Source: Planctomycetaceae bacterium
Lineage (GTDB): Bacteria > Planctomycetota > Planctomycetia > Pirellulales > UBA1268
Length of the DNA stretch: 63,462 bases
Assembly: GCA_947449135.1 (NCBI GenBank)
Contig: CANFQO010000011.1
Coordinates: forward strand, 1 to 63,462
Reading direction: 5' to 3'
Shown: positions 52,739 through 62,606 of the stretch, one piece after another
Layout: the number at the start of each line of letters is the position of its first letter
Position numbering within the stretch: position 1 is the stretch's first letter
The notes under the pieces: generated by a model
Seen by the model: only the letters and a program-made list of their open reading frames with translations
Told to the model about the DNA's origin: nothing
Database searches by the model: none
Position numbers and translations under genes: made by a program

Positions 52739-52811
52739 CAGGGGCGGCGGGGATCGAACTCGCAACCTCTGGTTTTGGAGACCAGCGCTCTGCCAGTTGA
52801 GCTACGCCCCT
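52739..52811 (-). tRNA. tRNA-Trp (CCA)
   Basis: 73 nt with acceptor stem AGGGGCG/CGCCCCT, T-loop GTTCGATCC and anticodon loop TCTCCAAAA (anticodon CCA). It lies between tuf and secE, a common position in bacteria. Terminal CCA not encoded. Confidence 0.96.
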
Positions 52812-52909
52812 GTGGTCGTGGGGCCCCGGTCACCGGGGCCCCACTTCCTAAGGATCTTACGAACGACGCTATCGAAGACTGTCTTCTTGGTTCGGGCTGC
52901 TCCGTGGGA

Positions 52910-54109
52910 TCAGTCGAGGATCTTGGTCACAACGCCCGAGCCGACCGTCTTGCCACCTTCGCGAATGGCGAACCGCACACCGTCGTCCATGGCGATCGGC
53001 ACCATCAGCTCGACCTCCATCTTGACGTTGTCGCCCGGCGAGCACATCTCGACGCCGCCAAGCAGCTTGGTCGAGCCGGTCACGTCGGTCGTACGGAAGT
53101 AGAACTGCGGCCGGTAGCCGGCGAAGAACGGCGTATGACGGCCGCCTTCTTCCTTCGAGAGCACGTAGACTTCGCACTCAAACTTCTTGTGGGGCTTGAT
53201 GGAGCCCGGCTTGGCGAGCACCTGGCCACGCTCGATGCCTTCACGAGCCACACCACGGAGGAGGCAGCCCACGTTGTCACCGGCCTGTCCGCTGTCGAGT
53301 ACCTTCTTGAACATCTCGACGCCCGTGCAGGTGGTCTTCTCAGCCTTTTCCTTGAGGCCGATGATCTCGACTTCGTCGCCCACCTTCACCATGCCACGCT
53401 CGATACGACCCGTGGCCACCGTTCCGCGGCCTTCGATCGAGAACACGTCCTCGATCGCCATCAGGAACGGCTTGTCGAGTTCACGCATCGGCTCGGGGAT
53501 GTAGCTATCGACGGCATCCAGCAGATCGGCGATGCACTTGTTCGCAGCAGGGTCCGCCGGGCTGTCGTAGGCCGGCTTGCCGGCACCACGAATGATCGGC
53601 ACATCGTCACCAGGGAAACCGTACTTCGTGAGCAACTCACGGATTTCCATCTCGACCAGGTCGAGAAGTTCCGGGTCGTCCACGAGGTCGACCTTGTTGA
53701 GAAACACGACGAGCGCCGGCACGCCGACCTGCTTCGCGAGCAGGATGTGCTCACGAGTCTGCGGCATCGGGCCGTCGGCAGCGCTCACCACGAGAATTGC
53801 GCCGTCCATCTGGGCGGCACCCGTGATCATGTTCTTGATGAAGTCGGCGTGGCCCGGACAGTCGATGTGGGCGTAGTGCCGCTTGGCGGTCTCATACTCC
53901 ACGTGACTGACGGCGATGGTCACCGTCTTCGTTTCGTCACGAACGGTGCCACCCTTGGCGATGTCGGCGTAGCTCTTGGCCACGGCCAGATTCTTCGCTG
54001 CCTGCACGGCGACGAGCGCACCGGTCAGCGTGGTCTTGCCGTGGTCGATGTGTCCAATGGTGCCGACGTTGACGTGCGGCTTGCTCCGCGTGAACGAGTC
54101 CTTTGCCAT
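52910..54109 (-). CDS. tuf: elongation factor Tu
   Basis: 399 residues, the usual length. GTP-binding motifs are all present: [14 protein letters not shown] (P-loop), [12 protein letters not shown] (DxxG), [10 protein letters not shown] (NKxD) and domain II/III signatures ([51 protein letters not shown]). EF-Tu brings aminoacyl-tRNA to the ribosome. It follows a run of four tRNA genes in the same direction and precedes tRNA-Trp. Large frames on the other strand are shadows of this highly biased gene. Confidence 0.99.
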
Positions 54110-54392
54110 GCTTTACTCCCTCGATCTTCCTCTCTTGTGGCTGCAGGCCTTTGGGCCTGCGTCGGATGTGAGTCTCAAAAACGTTTGGTGGTCAAAACCG
54201 ACAGCGTCCGACCGGAGACCGCCCGGCCGGACTTGTATTGGATGCGAACAGACCTGGAACGATGACCTGACTTTCCCAGGAAGAGCTTTGTACGAAAAAA
54301 AAAGGGGTTTGTCTTGGGTCTTCGGTCTTGAGGCTGTTTGAGCGGTGGATTTTGGGCGGTCGAGCCCGACGCGGTGGGTTGCCGGACGGCAG

Positions 54393-54466
<74 letters not shown>

Positions 54467-54605
54467 AAAAGAAAACAGTTCAGGCGGGCCATCGGCATGC
54501 CGGGAAGTCTGACTTGAGGGTTTCGGGCAATCTGGCGAAGAATTTCGGGTCGGGCTGTGGTGAACACGGATGCTGGGAGCTGCTGTTTCAGACGCAGGGA
54601 CGGGA

Positions 54606-54676
54606 AGCGGGTAGAGGGAATCGAACCCTCGTCTTCAGCTTGGAAGGCTATTGCTCTACCATTGAGCTACACCCGC
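54606..54676 (-). tRNA. tRNA-Gly (UCC)
   Basis: 71 nt with acceptor stem GCGGGTG/TACCCGC, T-loop GTTCGATTC and anticodon loop CTTCCAAG (anticodon UCC). Third tRNA of the tuf operon. Confidence 0.95.
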
Positions 54677-54743
54677 ATCGACGAATTCAGCCGCGATGTA
54701 TTCAGCCATATTGAGCAGACGTGAGCCGGAGCACACGTGGCAG

Positions 54744-54826
54744 TGGGGAGTGCAGGATTCGAACCTGCGAAGGAAAAATCCATCAGATTTACAGTCTGAC
54801 CCCTTTGACCGCTCGGGAAACTCCCC
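54744..54826 (-). tRNA. tRNA-Tyr (GUA)
   Basis: 83 nt with acceptor stem GGGGAGT/ACTCCCC, a long variable arm, T-loop GTTCGAATC and anticodon loop CTGTAAATC (anticodon GUA). Second tRNA of the tuf operon. Confidence 0.95.
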
Positions 54827-55067
54827 GTGTGCCCGGGCCGATTGGGCCGCGAGCATCGACGGATGATGTGCTTGTGTGCTGTCTTCGGCTCTGCGACTCA
54901 GCAATGGCTGCCCGCGGGACTTGTTCGCTTGTTGGACGTGACCTCTGGCGTGTGATCGGGTGACGGGTGTGAAGGGGTATTCGCGTTTTGGTGCTGGATC
55001 GCTGACTGAGGGAATCGCCTCGGCGAGTTGAATCCAGACACGTATTGGCGGCTGGTACATCATGCTG

Positions 55068-55140
55068 AGCTAGCGGCGGGAGTTGAACCCGCAACCTGCT
55101 GATTACAAATCAGCTGCTCTGCCAATTGAGCTACGCTAGC
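55068..55140 (-). tRNA. tRNA-Thr (UGU)
   Basis: 73 nt with acceptor stem GCTAGCG/CGCTAGC, T-loop GTTCAACTC and anticodon loop ATTTGTAAT (anticodon UGU). First gene of the tRNA-tuf operon. Confidence 0.96.
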
Positions 55141-55252: not shown

Positions 55253-56458
55253 TCACGAAAACGCCAGTTCCAGCATGGAGAAATCGTCGTTGAAATCATC
55301 CTTCGCCGAAATCTCTCGGATTCGGGCAAGCAGGCGATCAAGCCGAACCCCAGATTCGGGGGGGGCCTCGGAGAGCGTGGCGACAAAGTCGTCGAACGCC
55401 CACATCGATCCGTCTGGACGACTGACTTCAAACGCGCCGTCGCTGTAGACAAACAGCCGACTGCCCACTGGCACACCGACCTCGCCCGAATTGAACTCCA
55501 GCCCTTCAACGGCACCGATGAGCGGCCCGTCCGACTCCAGCATCGCAGGCTTTTGGCCGGCGCCGGGTGCCAGCAGCAACGCCGCCGGATGCCCGCCTCC
55601 AGCCCAGCGGATCGTGCGCGATGAGATCTGGTAGACGCCGTACCAGATGGTGAAAAACATGTCGTTCTGACGCTCCATCGGAAACGCCTTGTTGAGCGCG
55701 GCCAGCACGGCACTCGGGTCGTGGAAGTTGGTCTGCGGCAGCGCCTCGCTGCGGATCGAATTGAGCGCCGACACGCTCAGGAGCGCGGCCCCCACGCCAT
55801 GGCCGCATACGTCCAGCAGATAGACGGCAATGTGGTCATCATCAAGACTGTGGTATCCGAAGGCATCGCCCCCCAGTTCCGCCGAGGGCACGAACCGCCA
55901 GTCGGTCTCAATCGGACCGATCCGCTGCGGCGGGGGGAGCAGGGACCGCACATAGTGCGCCGCCGTCTCGAGATCGTTGGCAAGCACCTGGCGGCTGGCT
56001 TGGAGCGCCGCAAAGGCCTCATTTCGCTCGATCAGCGCGATGTAGCCGCGGGAGTGGTAGCGGAGCCGGGCCAGAAGTTCCAATCGGTCAGGCAGTTTCA
56101 CGACATAGTCGTTGGCCCCAAGCGCGAAGGCCTCGGCCTTCACTGCAGCCTCTTCCTTGGCGGAGAGCACGATGATCGGCACGTCACGAAACCGCTCGGT
56201 GGCTCGAAACTGCCGGACGAGTTCCAGCCCGTCGATGGACGGCATCACGAGATCCTGCAGGATCACGGTGGGCTCGATCTGGGCTGCAACCTCAAGGGCA
56301 GTGCTCGCGTCGCGGCAGAAATGAAAGGCTATGCCCTCCTCGCCAACGAGCATGCGACGAACCGCCTCGCCGATGATCGGCTGGTCGTCAACGAGCAGCA
56401 CCGTCGTGCCGCGGGATGCCGGGTTTTTCTGGGCGGCCAGATCCACGGTGTGCGCCAC
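55253..56458 (-). CDS. response regulator with PP2C/SpoIIE-type phosphatase domain (RsbU-like)
   Basis: 401 residues if started at the GTG at 56456-56458, the last likely start before the receiver domain; another GTG is at 56444-56446 and the frame runs further upstream. The receiver domain has VLLVDDQPIIGEAVRRML, LQDLVMPSIDGLEL (phosphorylated Asp), and PIIVLSAKEE, GANDYVVKL. A helical linker leads to the SpoIIE-type domain: RFVPSAELGGDAFGY, VYLLDVCGHGVGAALLS, GGGHPAALLL and the closing DFNDDFSMLELAF, with the metal-binding Asp residues. Such proteins dephosphorylate anti-anti-sigma factors in stress signalling. No partner switch genes are in the window. Confidence 0.9.
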   Translation of the reverse strand: MAHTVDLAAQKNPASRGTTVLLVDDQPIIGEAVRRMLVGEEGIAFHFCRDASTALEVAAQIEPTVILQDLVMPSIDGLELVRQFRATERFRDVPIIVLSAKEEAAVKAEAFALGANDYVVKLPDRLELLARLRYHSRGYIALIERNEAFAALQASRQVLANDLETAAHYVRSLLPPPQRIGPIETDWRFVPSAELGGDAFGYHSLDDDHIAVYLLDVCGHGVGAALLSVSALNSIRSEALPQTNFHDPSAVLAALNKAFPMERQNDMFFTIWYGVYQISSRTIRWAGGGHPAALLLAPGAGQKPAMLESDGPLIGAVEGLEFNSGEVGVPVGSRLFVYSDGAFEVSRPDGSMWAFDDFVATLSEAPPESGVRLDRLLARIREISAKDDFNDDFSMLELAFS

Positions 56459-56718
56459 GATCCACGGGGAAAAAGTCGTGAGCCTACCACACACCCCGTG
56501 TTGGTGGTGGCCTTGTCGACGACCGCTTCGCAGCCATGCACTCGTGGTTGTAACACCAACTGAGAACGCATCTGACTTAGGTTTAACACCGGCTTCAGGG
56601 GCGGCAAAAGTCTCGTCGCGGGGGCCGCGGCGGCCCAACGCTCCTCGAGCTTCCGCCGACCCCCTCGCCTACGTCTCAAGGTTTGCCAACGCGTCTCTCC
56701 AGCTATCTGAAATCCGCT

Positions 56719-57159
56719 CTAGCCCTTTTTCTTGGGTCGGCACGCCGGCGGTTCGGCAAGGGAAAAGACGAGGACCTCTTCGCCGGTGACGGTGGAAATG
56801 TCGTGGTGAACGCTGACGAGTTTGACGCCGACGGCCTGTTCCACAATCGATTCCAGCTGCGGGCGACCTGTGGCCACCATGTGGGCCCGCACCTGCTTGA
56901 GCAGGGCCCGTCCGTTGCCTCTGTCGTGCCCGTGGGTGATGTCCGGCCGGTCATCCCCATGACCAGTGCCGTCTGATGGTTCGTGTCGCGGTGCAATGAG
57001 TTGCCGCTCGGCCGGTGTCAGCGCTCCTTGCAGCCTGACGATCAGCAGCGACCCGACAAGGTGCGCATGGATGTCGCGTGGACCCCGACCAAGAAACTCT
57101 TGCTGGAATCGTGAGATGCCGTCACAGACGGCTGCCTCGATTTCGCCCTGGGATTTCAC
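56719..57159 (-). CDS. mpsC: MpsC/DUF2294-family protein (copy 1)
   Basis: 146 residues from a GTG at 57157-57159 with GAGG 8 bases upstream. It matches the DUF2294 family, now named MpsC: KSQGEIEAAVCDGISRFQQEFLGRGPRDIHAHLVGSLLIVRLQGALTPAERQL, and after a His/Gly/Asp insertion LLKQVRAHMVATGRPQLESIVEQAVGVKLVSVHHDISTVTGEEVLVFSL. MpsC is the third component beside MpsA and MpsB (DabB/DabA) in Staphylococcus, a system for membrane potential and bicarbonate uptake. It lies 231 bases after csrA. The insertion of about 18 residues (SDGTGHGDDRPDITHGHDRG) is not in copy 3. Confidence 0.85.
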   Translation of the reverse strand: MKSQGEIEAAVCDGISRFQQEFLGRGPRDIHAHLVGSLLIVRLQGALTPAERQLIAPRHEPSDGTGHGDDRPDITHGHDRGNGRALLKQVRAHMVATGRPQLESIVEQAVGVKLVSVHHDISTVTGEEVLVFSLAEPPACRPKKKG

Positions 57160-57390
57160 TGAATACCTCAAAGATGACGCTGATAAAGCATGCCGCCCAC
57201 GCGCTGTGGAATGCCCCCGAAGCAGCACTCCTGAGAGCAGATCGGGGTTTCCTCCGCGCTGCCCAGTCAGTCCGGGAATGACTCCAGTCGCAGCCTTGCG
57301 ACCTGCCCACGCGGCCATGCCGACGATCGGCCTGCGGAGAAAAAGCCCCCGAAACCGGTGCGCCGCCGCGTAGTGCCGACCAACCTGTCG

Positions 57391-57684
57391 CTACCGCCGC
57401 TGTCCAGCCTCGACCTCGCCATCGACCGTGGAGGGTCGAAGCCGTGCGGCCGCCTGGCCGTTGCCGTTGCCGTTGCCATTGCCGTTGCCGTTGGGGCCGG
57501 CGTCGCCGTTACAGATTCGGTCCCAGACCTCTCGGCGATGGATTGGCATTCGGGTGTCGGCCTCGAAACCAAGCCGTACTCTCCCACCCTCGATCTCCAG
57601 AATGGTGATTTCGAGCACCACCTCGAGATCCTCAGGCCGGCCAATCACTACGCTTTCGCGATTCTTCCTCGTCAGCACCAACAT
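57391..57684 (-). CDS. csrA: carbon storage regulator CsrA with Asn-Gly repeat tail
   Basis: 97 residues; CsrA is normally about 60-70. Residues 1-60 are canonical (MLVLTRKNRESVVIG, VLEITILEIEGGRVRLGFEADTRMPIHRREVWDRI), including the R/L residues that bind GGA motifs in mRNA leaders. The tail is NGNGNGNGNGNGQAAARL, encoded by a run of six-base repeats, then RPSTVDGEVEAGQRR. CsrA controls translation and stability of mRNAs, often in carbon metabolism. Its gene lies between two MpsC-type genes on the same strand, which suggests it controls or is controlled with them. Confidence 0.93.
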   Translation of the reverse strand: MLVLTRKNRESVVIGRPEDLEVVLEITILEIEGGRVRLGFEADTRMPIHRREVWDRICNGDAGPNGNGNGNGNGNGQAAARLRPSTVDGEVEAGQRR

Positions 57685-57724: not shown

Positions 57725-58189
57725 TCAGTTGCGGGCGGATCCGTTGCCGCCCGCTCCGTTCGAATGCACATGGTCATTGATCGGCACGCCCAGAGCTGGG
57801 AGCCCCTGGCCGAGCAGAAAGAGTTCCACGGCCGGGTTGGTCGTCAGCGTCTTGAGCACGCTGCCGGTCGTCGTGTCGACGTGGGCGATCGCGCCGCGGA
57901 GTTCAACACCCGTGCTGCGGCGGACATGGCTCCGGAGGGCGTGGAGCGAGTTATCGAAAAGGTAGCGGTGGAAATCCCGCACCCGGCTCGATCCTTCCTC
58001 GTCAGCCGCCAGTCGGCGCTCCACGGGCGAAAAGGCCTCGTGGAGATTGACGACCATCCATTGCCCATCCGCCACCACCGTAACGCTCCGTGGCGCTCGC
58101 CCCAGCAGGAGGTGTTCGAACGAGCCGGCCGCCTGAGCCACCTGCCGGGCGACACGTTCATCAAACTGTTGTTTCATCGTTGTGCTCAT
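57725..58189 (-). CDS. divergent MpsC/DUF2294-type protein (copy 2)
   Basis: 154 residues from the ATG at 58187-58189 (a second ATG four codons later is possible). The pattern is that of the family but more distant: FEHLLLGRAPRSVTVVADGQWMVVNLHEAFSPVERRLA corresponds to the GRGP ... VRL.G.LTPAE region of the other copies, and HALRSHVRRSTGVELRGAIAHVDTTTGSV to the C-terminal TG region. No membrane segment. It is 40 bases upstream of csrA, and downstream of the promoter-terminator unit at 58248-58451, so its expression may depend on readthrough of that terminator. Confidence 0.65.
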   Translation of the reverse strand: MSTTMKQQFDERVARQVAQAAGSFEHLLLGRAPRSVTVVADGQWMVVNLHEAFSPVERRLAADEEGSSRVRDFHRYLFDNSLHALRSHVRRSTGVELRGAIAHVDTTTGSVLKTLTTNPAVELFLLGQGLPALGVPINDHVHSNGAGGNGSARN

Positions 58190-58247: not shown

Positions 58248-58302
58248 AAAAACAAAAAAAGCCGGCGAGAGAGAGTGCCCAAAGGCTCTCTTTCTCGCCG
58301 GC
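58248..58302 (-). terminator. strong intrinsic terminator on the minus strand
   Basis: Stem GCCGGCGAGA/TCTCGCCGGC with further AG/CT pairs, a loop of about 10 bases, and then TTTTTTTGTTTTT on the minus strand. No minus-strand gene ends before it; the nearest gene upstream on this strand is far away. It lies 59 bases before the start of the MpsC-type gene at 58189. On the plus strand there is no T-run. Confidence 0.9.
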
Positions 58303-58417
58303 TTACGCTGCGACGGACCGCCCGGACCAAGGCCGGGATGCCCCTCGACTCGTCTTCCGCATTAGGATGTTTGTGCCGAAATTCCGCTGCGATACGCGAT
58401 CACAGCAGATGTTCAAC
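58248..58417 (-). ncRNA. candidate small RNA or attenuated leader, about 170 nt
   Basis: The region between the promoter at 58424-58451 and the terminator at 58248-58302 would give an RNA of about 170 nt. It holds two more hairpins: one of 8 bp (58386-58393 with 58399-58406, loop ACGCG) and CCCGG/CCGGG at about 58321-58337. A 19-codon frame (58303-58362, encoding MRKTSRGASRPWSGRSVAA) ends with its stop directly against the terminator stem, which is the layout of a leader peptide. No known RNA family is recognised. Confidence 0.6.
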
Positions 58418-58423
58418 GACCGT

Positions 58424-58451
58424 ATTATAGTGCGCAAACAGGGGAACGCAA
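58424..58451 (-). promoter_or_regulatory. strong promoter on the minus strand
   Basis: -35 TTGCGT (58446-58451), 16-base spacer, perfect -10 TATAAT (58424-58429). Predicted start about 58417. An alternative -35 CTTGCG gives a 17-base spacer. It is the best promoter seen in the window. Confidence 0.8.
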
Positions 58452-58784: not shown

Positions 58785-59198
58785 ATGGACGCTCTGAGAT
58801 CGCAGGGAGAGATCGAGGCCGCGGTCTGCGACGCAGTGTCGCGGTTTCAGCAGGAATACATGGGTCGCGGCCCCCGGCATGTGCACACTCACCTGATCGA
58901 AAACAAACTCTTCGTCCATCTCGAGGGGGTTCTGACGACCGCGGAGCAGCGACTGATGGATGCGCACAGCAACGGCAACAGCCGTGGAGCGGAACTGCTC
59001 AAGCAGCTCCGCAGCCACCTGGTCGTGGCCGGCAAGGCGCTGCTCGACACGCTCGTCCGCGATGCCACAGGGACGCAACCGGTGAGCGTGCATCACGACA
59101 TCAGTCCGACCACTGGAGAGGAAGTCCTCGTGTTCACGCTCTCCGCGGCGCCGCAGTGCCGCGGCCGCAACGGTTTCCACGACCGCAGGCGTAAATAG
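58785..59198 (+). CDS. mpsC: MpsC/DUF2294-family protein (copy 3)
   Basis: 137 residues from the ATG at 58785. It is clearly a paralog of copy 1: SQGEIEAAVCDAVSRFQQEYMGRGPRHVHTHLIENKLFVHLEGVLTTAEQRL, then LLKQLRSHLVVAGKALLDTLVRDATGTQPVSVHHDISPTTGEEVLVFTL. It lacks the His/Gly/Asp insertion of copy 1. The C-terminus is basic. It is the first of three plus-strand genes, with dabA 295 bases and dabB further downstream, so an mpsC-dabA-dabB operon is likely. Family role: accessory to the DabAB/MpsAB membrane system. Confidence 0.87.
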   Translation: MDALRSQGEIEAAVCDAVSRFQQEYMGRGPRHVHTHLIENKLFVHLEGVLTTAEQRLMDAHSNGNSRGAELLKQLRSHLVVAGKALLDTLVRDATGTQPVSVHHDISPTTGEEVLVFTLSAAPQCRGRNGFHDRRRK

Positions 59199-59492: not shown

Positions 59493-62400
59493 ATGACGCA
59501 CATCAACGTGGCGGGCCCTGGCTCGTCTGATGCCGCAGACCCGCGGGCAGATGCGATCCAGCGGTCGATCGCGCACGCGGCCCACTTCCTGCCTGCCCAG
59601 GGGCCGATCGGCGTGTTCGTGCACCACAACACGCTGCACGCATTCGAGGAGCAGCCGTTCGACGAGGCGGTCATTCGTGCCTCCCGTATCTTCGGCACCG
59701 AGCCATTCCTCCCGGAAAGCCGCTACCGCGACGAACTCGCCCGTGGCCGCATCCGCGAGACCGATATCGAGGCCGTTCTGGACCAGGAACCGGCCTGCAG
59801 GAACGGAAGCCCGCTAGCCGGTGGCCGCGTCTCCGTGCGGCAACTCTACCGGGCACTGCTGCTTCACCCGGTCCGCCAGGAATCGGATGCCGCTGTCCGT
59901 TGGACGCTCACCGAAAGCGATGTGCTGGAGCGGTTGCGCACAGATCTATCCCCTGAAATCCATTGGCGGTTGGTGAGCGACGATGGCATGGGCGGCGCCA
60001 ATGAGGCGGACGGCCCGCTTGCCGATTCCGACGACGAAGCCACCAGACGGGCAACGTTCGCTCGAGATCCGGGCGCTGCCGGCGAACGCCGGGCAGCAAG
60101 CGAACTATGGCATGCCTGCGTGGAGGCGGTGGCGCTCACCCGGGCCGCGGTGGTCCACGTGCAGCCTCCCGTGCGGCATCGCGATCTCATTTGTGCGGTT
60201 GACTCGTACATCGATACGGATGTGCTCGTCCATCCGCTGCTGATTCGAATCTGCGCCGCCTTTCTCGATCAGGGAGTCGCAGCCTGGGCGATGCCCGGAC
60301 GTGAACACGGGCTGCTGGCAGCGGCCACACAGGTGTATTCCGGCCGCTTTGGCCCCACGGAACCCTGGAGCGCCAGGCTGCCGAGTGCTCTGCGAGACAT
60401 TCGTGGGCTCCCGGCGGTTGATGTGATCGCAGCGGAACTCGATCGACTCGGCGTTCCCGAGAAGGACTGGCAGGAATTCATCGTCAAATCCCTGCTCGCC
60501 CTCCGTGGATGGGCGGGGATGATCCATCATCTGGAAGAGCGGCCCGACCGGGCTCCGGTGGAGGCCGTGCCGGCGAAGCTCATCGATTTCCTGGCGCTGC
60601 GATTGGTCTGCGACCGCGTCGCCGCTGAATGGGCGGCCCTGCAGCTCGGGTTTGAACGGAGGGACTTCGAGAACGGCGACCGATCACAGGGCAGCAGCCG
60701 GCTGTCCAGCCTATGGACAGAGCTCCGCGACCGCTATCCCGCACAACGCGGCCCCGGCAGTCTGGCGCGGGCGTTCCTGCTCCACCAGGTGTCGCAGCTC
60801 GTCGGGATCACCGCCCGCGACATTCGTGGACTCGACGAGAACGAGCTTGTCCGGCTCGAACAAGCCATTGCAGGCTTTGACGACATCGCCCGGCGTCGTC
60901 TGTTCCACCTCGCGTACGAGCGGCGGCACCGCATCGAGGTGCTCGACGCGCTGGCGGCGCAGTCCGGGTTCGCAATGCCACCGGCAGCCGATCGGCCGCT
61001 TGCTCAGGTGGTCCTTTGCATCGACGAGCGGTGCGAATCGTTCCGGCGTCACTTCGAGGAGCTGGGGCCTCGCTACGAGACGTTTGGCACCGCCGGCTTC
61101 TTTGCCGTGCCGATGTACTACAGGGGTGTGGACGACTGGCACGCATCGCCATTGTGCCCGATCGTGATGCGGCCGAAACACACCGTCGTGGAGGTGCCAG
61201 AGGAGGCTGCGGCGGCCCGCCACGAATTGAATCGCACCATGCGACGTCGCATCGGACAGATGTCGGGCGGGCTTTCCACGGGGAGTCGCACACTCCTCCG
61301 CGGCGGGCTGTTCACGGCCTTTGCGGGGGCCGTGGCTGCGGTGCCGCTCGTGGCACGCGTGGTCTTTCCCCGCCTCACTGCCAGGCTCGGTCGCCGGGCC
61401 GCCGAACTGGCCGGCCGCAGGATCCCCACTCGGCTCGAACTCGACCGCGACGACGAACAGCTTCCGGATGCCGACGGCCTGCAAGCGGGATTCAGCGTTG
61501 CCGAGATGGCCGACATGGTCCGCCGCGTCTTGCAAGACATCGGCATGACCGCCGTGTTCTCGCGGATCGTGGCGGTGATCGGACACGGGTCATCGAGCCT
61601 GAACAATCCCCACGAGAGCGCCTACGACTGCGGTGCCTGTGGCGGCGGCCGCGGCGGCCCCAATGCGAGAGCGTTCGCCACCATGGCCAATGACGAACGC
61701 GTTCGCGCGCGGCTGGCGGCTGAAGGCCTCGTGATCCCCGCCGACACCCGTTTCATCGGCGGCATGCTCGATACCTGCTCCGACGACATCACATGGTTCG
61801 ATGTCGGCCGTCTGCCCGAGAGCCATCGGACAGACTTGGAGCGATTGCAGGGGGCATGCATGGCGGTCTGTGCAGCCAATGCGCACGAGCGTTGCCGCCG
61901 ATTCGAGACCGCCCCGCTCGATGTCTCTCGCGATGAGGCGCACGCGCACGTGGAAGCCCGCAGCGTCGACCTGGCGCAGGTGCGCCCGGAACTCGGCCAC
62001 GCGACCAACGCCGTGTGCATCATCGGTCGCCGATGGCGCACTCGCGGACTATTCCTCGACCGGCGTGCATTCCTCGTGTCCTATGACCCGGAAACCGATG
62101 ACGACGGCACGATCTTGGCAAGAACGCTGGCTGCCGTCGGGCCAGTAGGAGCGGGCATCAATCTCGAATATTTCTTTTCCATCATCGATCGGCTCGGCTA
62201 TGGTGCCGGCACGAAACTGCCCCACAACATCACCGGACTGATCGGAGTGATGGACGGCCATGCCAGTGACCTGCGGACGGGGCTGCCGTGGCAGATGGTG
62301 GAAATCCACGAACCAGTCCGGTTGCTTGTGGTCATCGATCAGACTCCCGAAAAAATCTTGGCCGCAGCCGAGGCGGTGCCGGCGGTAAAGCGACTGGTGG

Positions 62401-62606
62401 TAAACAGCTGGATCCAGCTCGTTTCCTGGCATCCGCACACCGGCGCGCTCGCCGTCTTTGAGAACGGCGAATTCGTGCCGTATCGGCCCGAGCGGATCGA
62501 TATCCCGGTGGTCGAGCGGTCCGTCTCGTGGTATGCCGGTCATCGTGATCATCTGCCTCCAGCCAGGGTGCTTGCCGCGGCCATTGGCCAAGGAAAACAG
62601 GCATGA
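59493..62606 (+). CDS. dabA: DabA (DUF2309) inorganic-carbon transporter subunit, MpsB homolog
   Basis: 1037 residues. The DUF2309 family zinc site is complete: C509 and D511 in VVLCIDERCESFRRHF, H698 in GHGSSSLNN and C713 in ESAYDCGACGGGRGG, a beta-carbonic-anhydrase-like arrangement with spacings of 2, 187 and 15. Other conserved stretches are PIGVFVHHNTLHAFEEQPFDEAV near the start and YFFSIIDRLGYGAGTKLPHNITGLIGVMDGHASDLRTGLPWQMVEIHEPVRLL near the end. With DabB it takes up CO2/bicarbonate driven by the ion gradient. The TGA overlaps the dabB ATG. Confidence 0.95.
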   Translation: MTHINVAGPGSSDAADPRADAIQRSIAHAAHFLPAQGPIGVFVHHNTLHAFEEQPFDEAVIRASRIFGTEPFLPESRYRDELARGRIRETDIEAVLDQEPACRNGSPLAGGRVSVRQLYRALLLHPVRQESDAAVRWTLTESDVLERLRTDLSPEIHWRLVSDDGMGGANEADGPLADSDDEATRRATFARDPGAAGERRAASELWHACVEAVALTRAAVVHVQPPVRHRDLICAVDSYIDTDVLVHPLLIRICAAFLDQGVAAWAMPGREHGLLAAATQVYSGRFGPTEPWSARLPSALRDIRGLPAVDVIAAELDRLGVPEKDWQEFIVKSLLALRGWAGMIHHLEERPDRAPVEAVPAKLIDFLALRLVCDRVAAEWAALQLGFERRDFENGDRSQGSSRLSSLWTELRDRYPAQRGPGSLARAFLLHQVSQLVGITARDIRGLDENELVRLEQAIAGFDDIARRRLFHLAYERRHRIEVLDALAAQSGFAMPPAADRPLAQVVLCIDERCESFRRHFEELGPRYETFGTAGFFAVPMYYRGVDDWHASPLCPIVMRPKHTVVEVPEEAAAARHELNRTMRRRIGQMSGGLSTGSRTLLRGGLFTAFAGAVAAVPLVARVVFPRLTARLGRRAAELAGRRIPTRLELDRDDEQLPDADGLQAGFSVAEMADMVRRVLQDIGMTAVFSRIVAVIGHGSSSLNNPHESAYDCGACGGGRGGPNARAFATMANDERVRARLAAEGLVIPADTRFIGGMLDTCSDDITWFDVGRLPESHRTDLERLQGACMAVCAANAHERCRRFETAPLDVSRDEAHAHVEARSVDLAQVRPELGHATNAVCIIGRRWRTRGLFLDRRAFLVSYDPETDDDGTILARTLAAVGPVGAGINLEYFFSIIDRLGYGAGTKLPHNITGLIGVMDGHASDLRTGLPWQMVEIHEPVRLLVVIDQTPEKILAAAEAVPAVKRLVVNSWIQLVSWHPHTGALAVFENGEFVPYRPERIDIPVVERSVSWYAGHRDHLPPARVLAAAIGQGKQA

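Follow-up and report, generated by a model that had tools for sequence, protein, structure and literature searches.

The question raised by this locus is what a promoter and a terminator without any clear gene between them are doing ahead of an mpsC-like/csrA/mpsC operon in a planctomycete. In the first-pass annotation of the window (the whole analysed stretch of DNA, 63,462 nucleotides), the unit was considered to be either a new small RNA or a leader that controls the operon by attenuation. On the minus strand, the interval from 58451 to 58250 contains, in this order, a promoter, two hairpins (one at the 5' end and a second, irregular one) and a strong terminator; as had been stated, the MpsC-like gene is the first gene after the promoter. 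The parts of the unit and the genes behind it are as follows.

58424..58451, minus strand: putative promoter TTGCGT-16-TATAAT, from the sequence and from enrichment of the same hexamers and spacing at this distance in relatives
58375..58417, minus strand: 5' hairpin of the probable leader, from the fold, beginning at the predicted transcription start (about 58417)
58357..58359, minus strand: nearly invariant CGG, 5' strand of the proposed switch helix P0, from conservation in 150 relatives
58305..58353, minus strand: irregular (middle) hairpin P1-P2-P3, conserved core, from covariation (16/16 pairs change on both sides)
58299..58301, minus strand: nearly invariant CCG, 3' strand of the proposed P0 and foot of the terminator stem (146-150/150, almost no compensatory change)
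58254..58304, minus strand: intrinsic terminator, long stem-loop and T tract, from the fold (17/20 pairs change on both sides in relatives)
58250..58363, minus strand: whole conserved core matched by covariance models R1 (118.4 bits) and R2 (102.5 bits)
57725..58189, minus strand: first gene after the leader, MpsC/DUF2294 family (PF10057, 3.3e-12)
57391..57684, minus strand: csrA, second gene of the operon (PF02599, 9.3e-17)
56719..57318, minus strand: second MpsC/DUF2294 gene, given as the open frame, with the true start probably further in (PF10057, 1.1e-30)
55253..56638, minus strand: next gene downstream, response regulator with a SpoIIE-type phosphatase domain (PF00072 and PF07228)

The promoter had been called a near-perfect sigma-70 site, a description that fits the perfect -10 hexamer (TATAAT, 58429-58424) and the 16-nt spacer but not the -35 hexamer (TTGCGT, 58451-58446), which shares only three of six bases with TTGACA. 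A simple promoter scan of the window did not list the TTGCGT-16-TATAAT site, because its -35 is only half consensus. Sites resembling TTGC[AG]T-16-TATAAT (at least 9/12) precede 70 of 147 relatives versus 3.5% of random stretches, mostly 40-66 nt before the core and most commonly with the 16-nt spacing, while a clear match is absent from about half of the copies. This conservation supports the view that the promoter is real despite its weak -35. The predicted 168-nt RNA folds at -83.6 kcal/mol, compared with -59.1 +/- 4.1 kcal/mol for shuffled sequences (z -5.96), and the strong intrinsic terminator noticed before is borne out, with its stem and T tract at 58304-58254. The two other hairpins that had been reported are also present in the fold, at 58417-58375 and 58353-58305; the segment of the former has a mean fold z of -2.27 in the 53 relatives with a clear promoter.

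When 59 relatives were searched at the DNA level, clear homologs appeared in many genomes of the host family, several of which have two or three copies, and the downstream 110 bases were the best-conserved part. In the loci that were fetched, the gene immediately after the element was csrA or the first of an mpsC-like/csrA operon. Weak BLAST matches (L035, L038, L039 and L040) were judged by eye to be coding or chance and were left out. Covariance model R1 was built from an alignment of 30 cores and model R2 from 150 matches. At E <= 0.01, R1 matched 49/72 genomes of the family and 137/296 of the order, tallies that also count some chance matches and antisense echoes of the terminator; at E <= 1e-4, it matched 77/297 genomes of the class and 14/294 of the phylum. 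R2 matched 21/100 genomes in another family of the same order at 1e-6, one of them with 15 matches, and 8/294 genomes of the phylum, five of which are outside the class. A DNA-pattern scan of named genomes gave mostly chance matches, and only planctomycete-type records passed the model among the matches listed; the true matches among the named records listed were Pirellulales, Planctomycetia, Planctomicrobium-labelled, Phycisphaerales and some Kuenenia-labelled records. A large part of the host family has the RNA, and its distribution across Planctomycetia is patchy. Against Rfam 15, no family exceeded its gathering threshold in the window or in 12 diverse loci, and relaxed thresholds gave nothing relevant.

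The comparison across relatives, which the annotation had proposed as a check, found a conserved structure, the opposite of the outcome that was said to speak against the unit. Both-sided change occurred in 33 of 36 pairs in at least one of 149 distinct sequences, and 719 compensatory cells were observed versus 190.7 expected, a number reached by none of 500 shuffles, in an alignment fitted to the model, so that the counts lean towards structure. An unfitted MAFFT alignment of the 30 cores gave the same strong covariation, and sliding the pair partners abolished the signal. Three stretches are nearly invariant: the upstream CGG, a GAC that opens P1, and the CCG of the terminator foot. Among 150 relatives, the G positions of the CGG are G in 149-150 (1-2 changes) and its first position is C or U in 147. 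The terminator pairs next to the CCG vary with compensation whereas the CCG itself hardly varies, which suggests that the terminator stem is not the only constraint on these three bases. P0 and P1 are separated by a 3x3 purine-rich loop (A.G, N.A, G.A). Covariation and the position ahead of genes together mark a conserved structured domain in a 5' leader, as in riboswitches.

A possible partner of the CCG is the upstream CGG, and the three-pair helix between them (P0) has a mean predicted probability of 0.987 when the RNA is cut before the 3' arm of the terminator. In the full-length RNA the predicted probability of P0 falls to 0.004 and that of the terminator is 0.99. According to these computations, P0 and the terminator compete for one CCG, and the platform excludes the closing helix. 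The lack of variation in P0 leaves no covariation to be seen, and extra pairs beyond the three fit no better than chance. The minimum-energy state of the full-length RNA is always the terminated one; a riboswitch-type aptamer-closing helix, which needs stabilisation to prevent termination, has the same layout as P0. We infer that P0 is a switch and that binding activates the genes, as well as the nature of the signal. Transcription would start near 58417, and the 5' hairpin and P1-P3 would fold first. When AAGCCG emerges, its CCG could pair with the upstream CGG to form P0 and close an aptamer-like structure. Without anything to hold P0, the terminator hairpin would take the CCG and end transcription at about 58254. 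With P0 held by a ligand or protein, zipping of the terminator up to the U tract would be blocked, and readthrough into mpsC-csrA-mpsC would follow.

Whether the RNA acts in cis can be judged from the genes behind it. Among 79 copies with a recurring downstream family, the distance from the end of the element to the chosen start codon is at most 45 nt in 35 and at most 60 nt in 40, the start codons having been picked mechanically and a few being clearly too far in. Most BON genes begin 16-26 nt after the element. No promoter fits such short gaps without overlapping the conserved terminator, which means that readthrough is needed for these genes, and the same-strand placement ahead of many unrelated genes together with the short gaps argues for a cis leader. 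Of the two possibilities given in the annotation, the leader is therefore retained, with the terminator often 16-45 nt ahead of the start of many unrelated genes, and a free small RNA is disfavoured.

MpsC-like genes formed the largest downstream cluster in the first set. A Pfam search of 96 sampled downstream proteins, in which the MpsC number was held down by the sampling, identified response regulators (Response_reg, 12), BON (8), MpsC (8), CsbD (7), PEP-CTERM (7), histidine kinases (HisKA, 6), CsrA (5), ice-binding-like (3), KaiC (2) and DUF4142 (2) proteins, as well as single cases of Usp, acetate kinase, DUF2934, an oxidoreductase and a fatty-acid desaturase. CsbD genes number just 1-5 per genome. 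Four copies of the element occur within a 20-kb cluster of one genome, where they precede BON, response-regulator and sensor genes; the host genome has two copies, the csrA-operon leader and a second upstream of the gene for an 881-aa surface-type protein. The common theme of the controlled genes is mostly general stress and signalling, but a simple stress theme does not account for the secreted PEP-CTERM-type proteins or the large secreted proteins. The annotation had also pointed to CO2; this link is not supported, as dab genes are beside only some copies, most copies having none nearby, and the other controlled genes share the stress theme.

The unit is best read as an orphan, riboswitch-like attenuator. 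It is quite probable that the element is a conserved planctomycete 5'-leader RNA that conditionally terminates transcription of the gene behind it and heads a stress-type regulon. Narrower and distinctly more tentative is the proposal that the element represents a riboswitch class not described before, which would sense a stress signal inside the cell (e.g., an alarmone or an ion) and, by antitermination, switch on a general stress regulon in planctomycetes, with as many as about 15 genes per genome.

The closest competitor, possible but somewhat unlikely, is antitermination by a dedicated RNA-binding protein, possibly CsrA, which would recognise CGGANGAC/GUAAGCCG and hold the antiterminator, the RNA itself binding no small molecule. 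GGA is part of CsrA sites, which the conserved GGA of the element resembles, and csrA itself is among the controlled genes; however, the base two before the GGA is usually U and not the A of the CsrA consensus, and a GGA site leaves the equal constraint on the distant CCG unexplained. CsrA genes are also on hand in every class genome searched, and for this very reason their co-occurrence with the element is uninformative; the protein is universal in the class whereas the element is patchy. A stand-alone trans-acting small RNA beside csrA (e.g., a CsrA sponge), with separate promoters for the genes behind it, is improbable. Such an RNA would have its own promoter and strong terminator, as observed, and csrA is often close to the element, but this account is at odds with same-strand copies directly ahead of many unrelated genes at gaps too short for a promoter, with a single conserved GGA that lies outside the hairpin loops, and with a full-length RNA that does not keep one fold and whose fixed bases form an alternative helix. 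Very improbable is a plain constitutive terminator that senses nothing and serves only to reduce basal expression or to insulate the gene; the always terminated full-length fold agrees with it, but it has no need for the conserved P1-P3, the purine loops, the nearly invariant CGG far upstream or the unvarying foot. Attenuation through a leader peptide, at which the annotation had hinted, was rejected as scarcely credible: the 19-codon Arg-rich ATG frame does exist (58362-58303, minus strand) and its TAA abuts the terminator, but only 16/150 relatives keep a comparable frame, and the region changes in length by single bases.

Compared with terminator-platform riboswitches (fluoride, lithium and orphan candidates), the proposed attenuator likewise has a folded 5' leader domain, a helix that excludes the terminator and several copies ahead of related genes; it differs in that no Rfam class is matched and in its unusually broad stress-type gene set. 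CsrB/RsmZ-type sponges are similar in the position beside csrA here and in carrying GGA, but they have many such motifs, in contrast to the one conserved GGA of the element, which is not in a loop, and the element precedes many other genes. The Rhodopirellula-1 motif is listed in Table 1 of Weinberg et al. 2010 (PMC2864571) for Planctomycetes and Proteobacteria as probably cis-regulatory, with a possible switch left open and without an Rfam accession there. By that description alone, it resembles the element in being planctomycete, probably cis-regulatory and without an Rfam entry, and the two may be the same RNA; the table entry also covers Proteobacteria, whereas the limited pattern scan for the element gave no proteobacterial match among the matches listed. 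A yjbJ/CsbD-associated motif, reported as a weak riboswitch candidate (PMC11109978), precedes a CsbD-family gene and has two hairpins, of which the second resembles a terminator; compared by description only, the element shares the two hairpins, the terminator-like second one and a CsbD gene behind, but that report, unlike the present case, has no mention of Planctomycetes or csrA.

Beyond the Rhodopirellula-1 lead, the literature search found no description of the element and nothing linking it to a stress regulon, a P0 switch or a spread of this size; RNA-based control of planctomycete stress genes was not found in the searchable literature either. The collected evidence suggests a candidate regulon-wide attenuator leader. 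One structured leader shared by BON/OsmY-like, CsbD, Usp, CsrA, MpsC and signalling genes would delineate a stress regulon from sequence alone. Its copies also point to genes of unknown role that are probably co-regulated, among them the MpsC family next to the DAB carbon transporter, and the orphan RNA itself allows a direct search for its ligand.

Several additional observations concern the copies of the element and their surroundings. Tandem same-strand copies, 20-270 nt apart, were present in L200 (5466-5576 and 5843-5953) and L209 (5684-5787 and 5806-5914), and these pairs resemble tandem riboswitches. Several metagenome-assembled genomes labelled Candidatus Kuenenia carry the element (L080, L085, L090, L106 and L132); L085 is the same contig as in a genome of the host genus, so the Kuenenia label looks wrong. 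Large surface-type proteins with an N-terminal motif like MNVFDTLFPKRT are directly behind the element in L030, L036, L037, L042, L244 and L246. The number of csrA copies ranged from 1 to 17 per genome across the class genomes searched, all of which had the gene. In the window, the C-terminal extension of csrA contains a run of Gly-Asn codons (57440-57495, minus strand; GNGNGNGN), a possible variable repeat. The SpoIIE-type response-regulator gene stays adjacent to the operon in several relatives. A third MpsC gene (58785-59198, plus strand) is divergent from the operon and precedes dabA (59493-62606, plus strand), and several relatives likewise have the element between two divergent MpsC-family genes. 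Further downstream of the operon, at 52739-55140 on the minus strand, five tRNA genes are clustered around an EF-Tu gene, all on the same strand.
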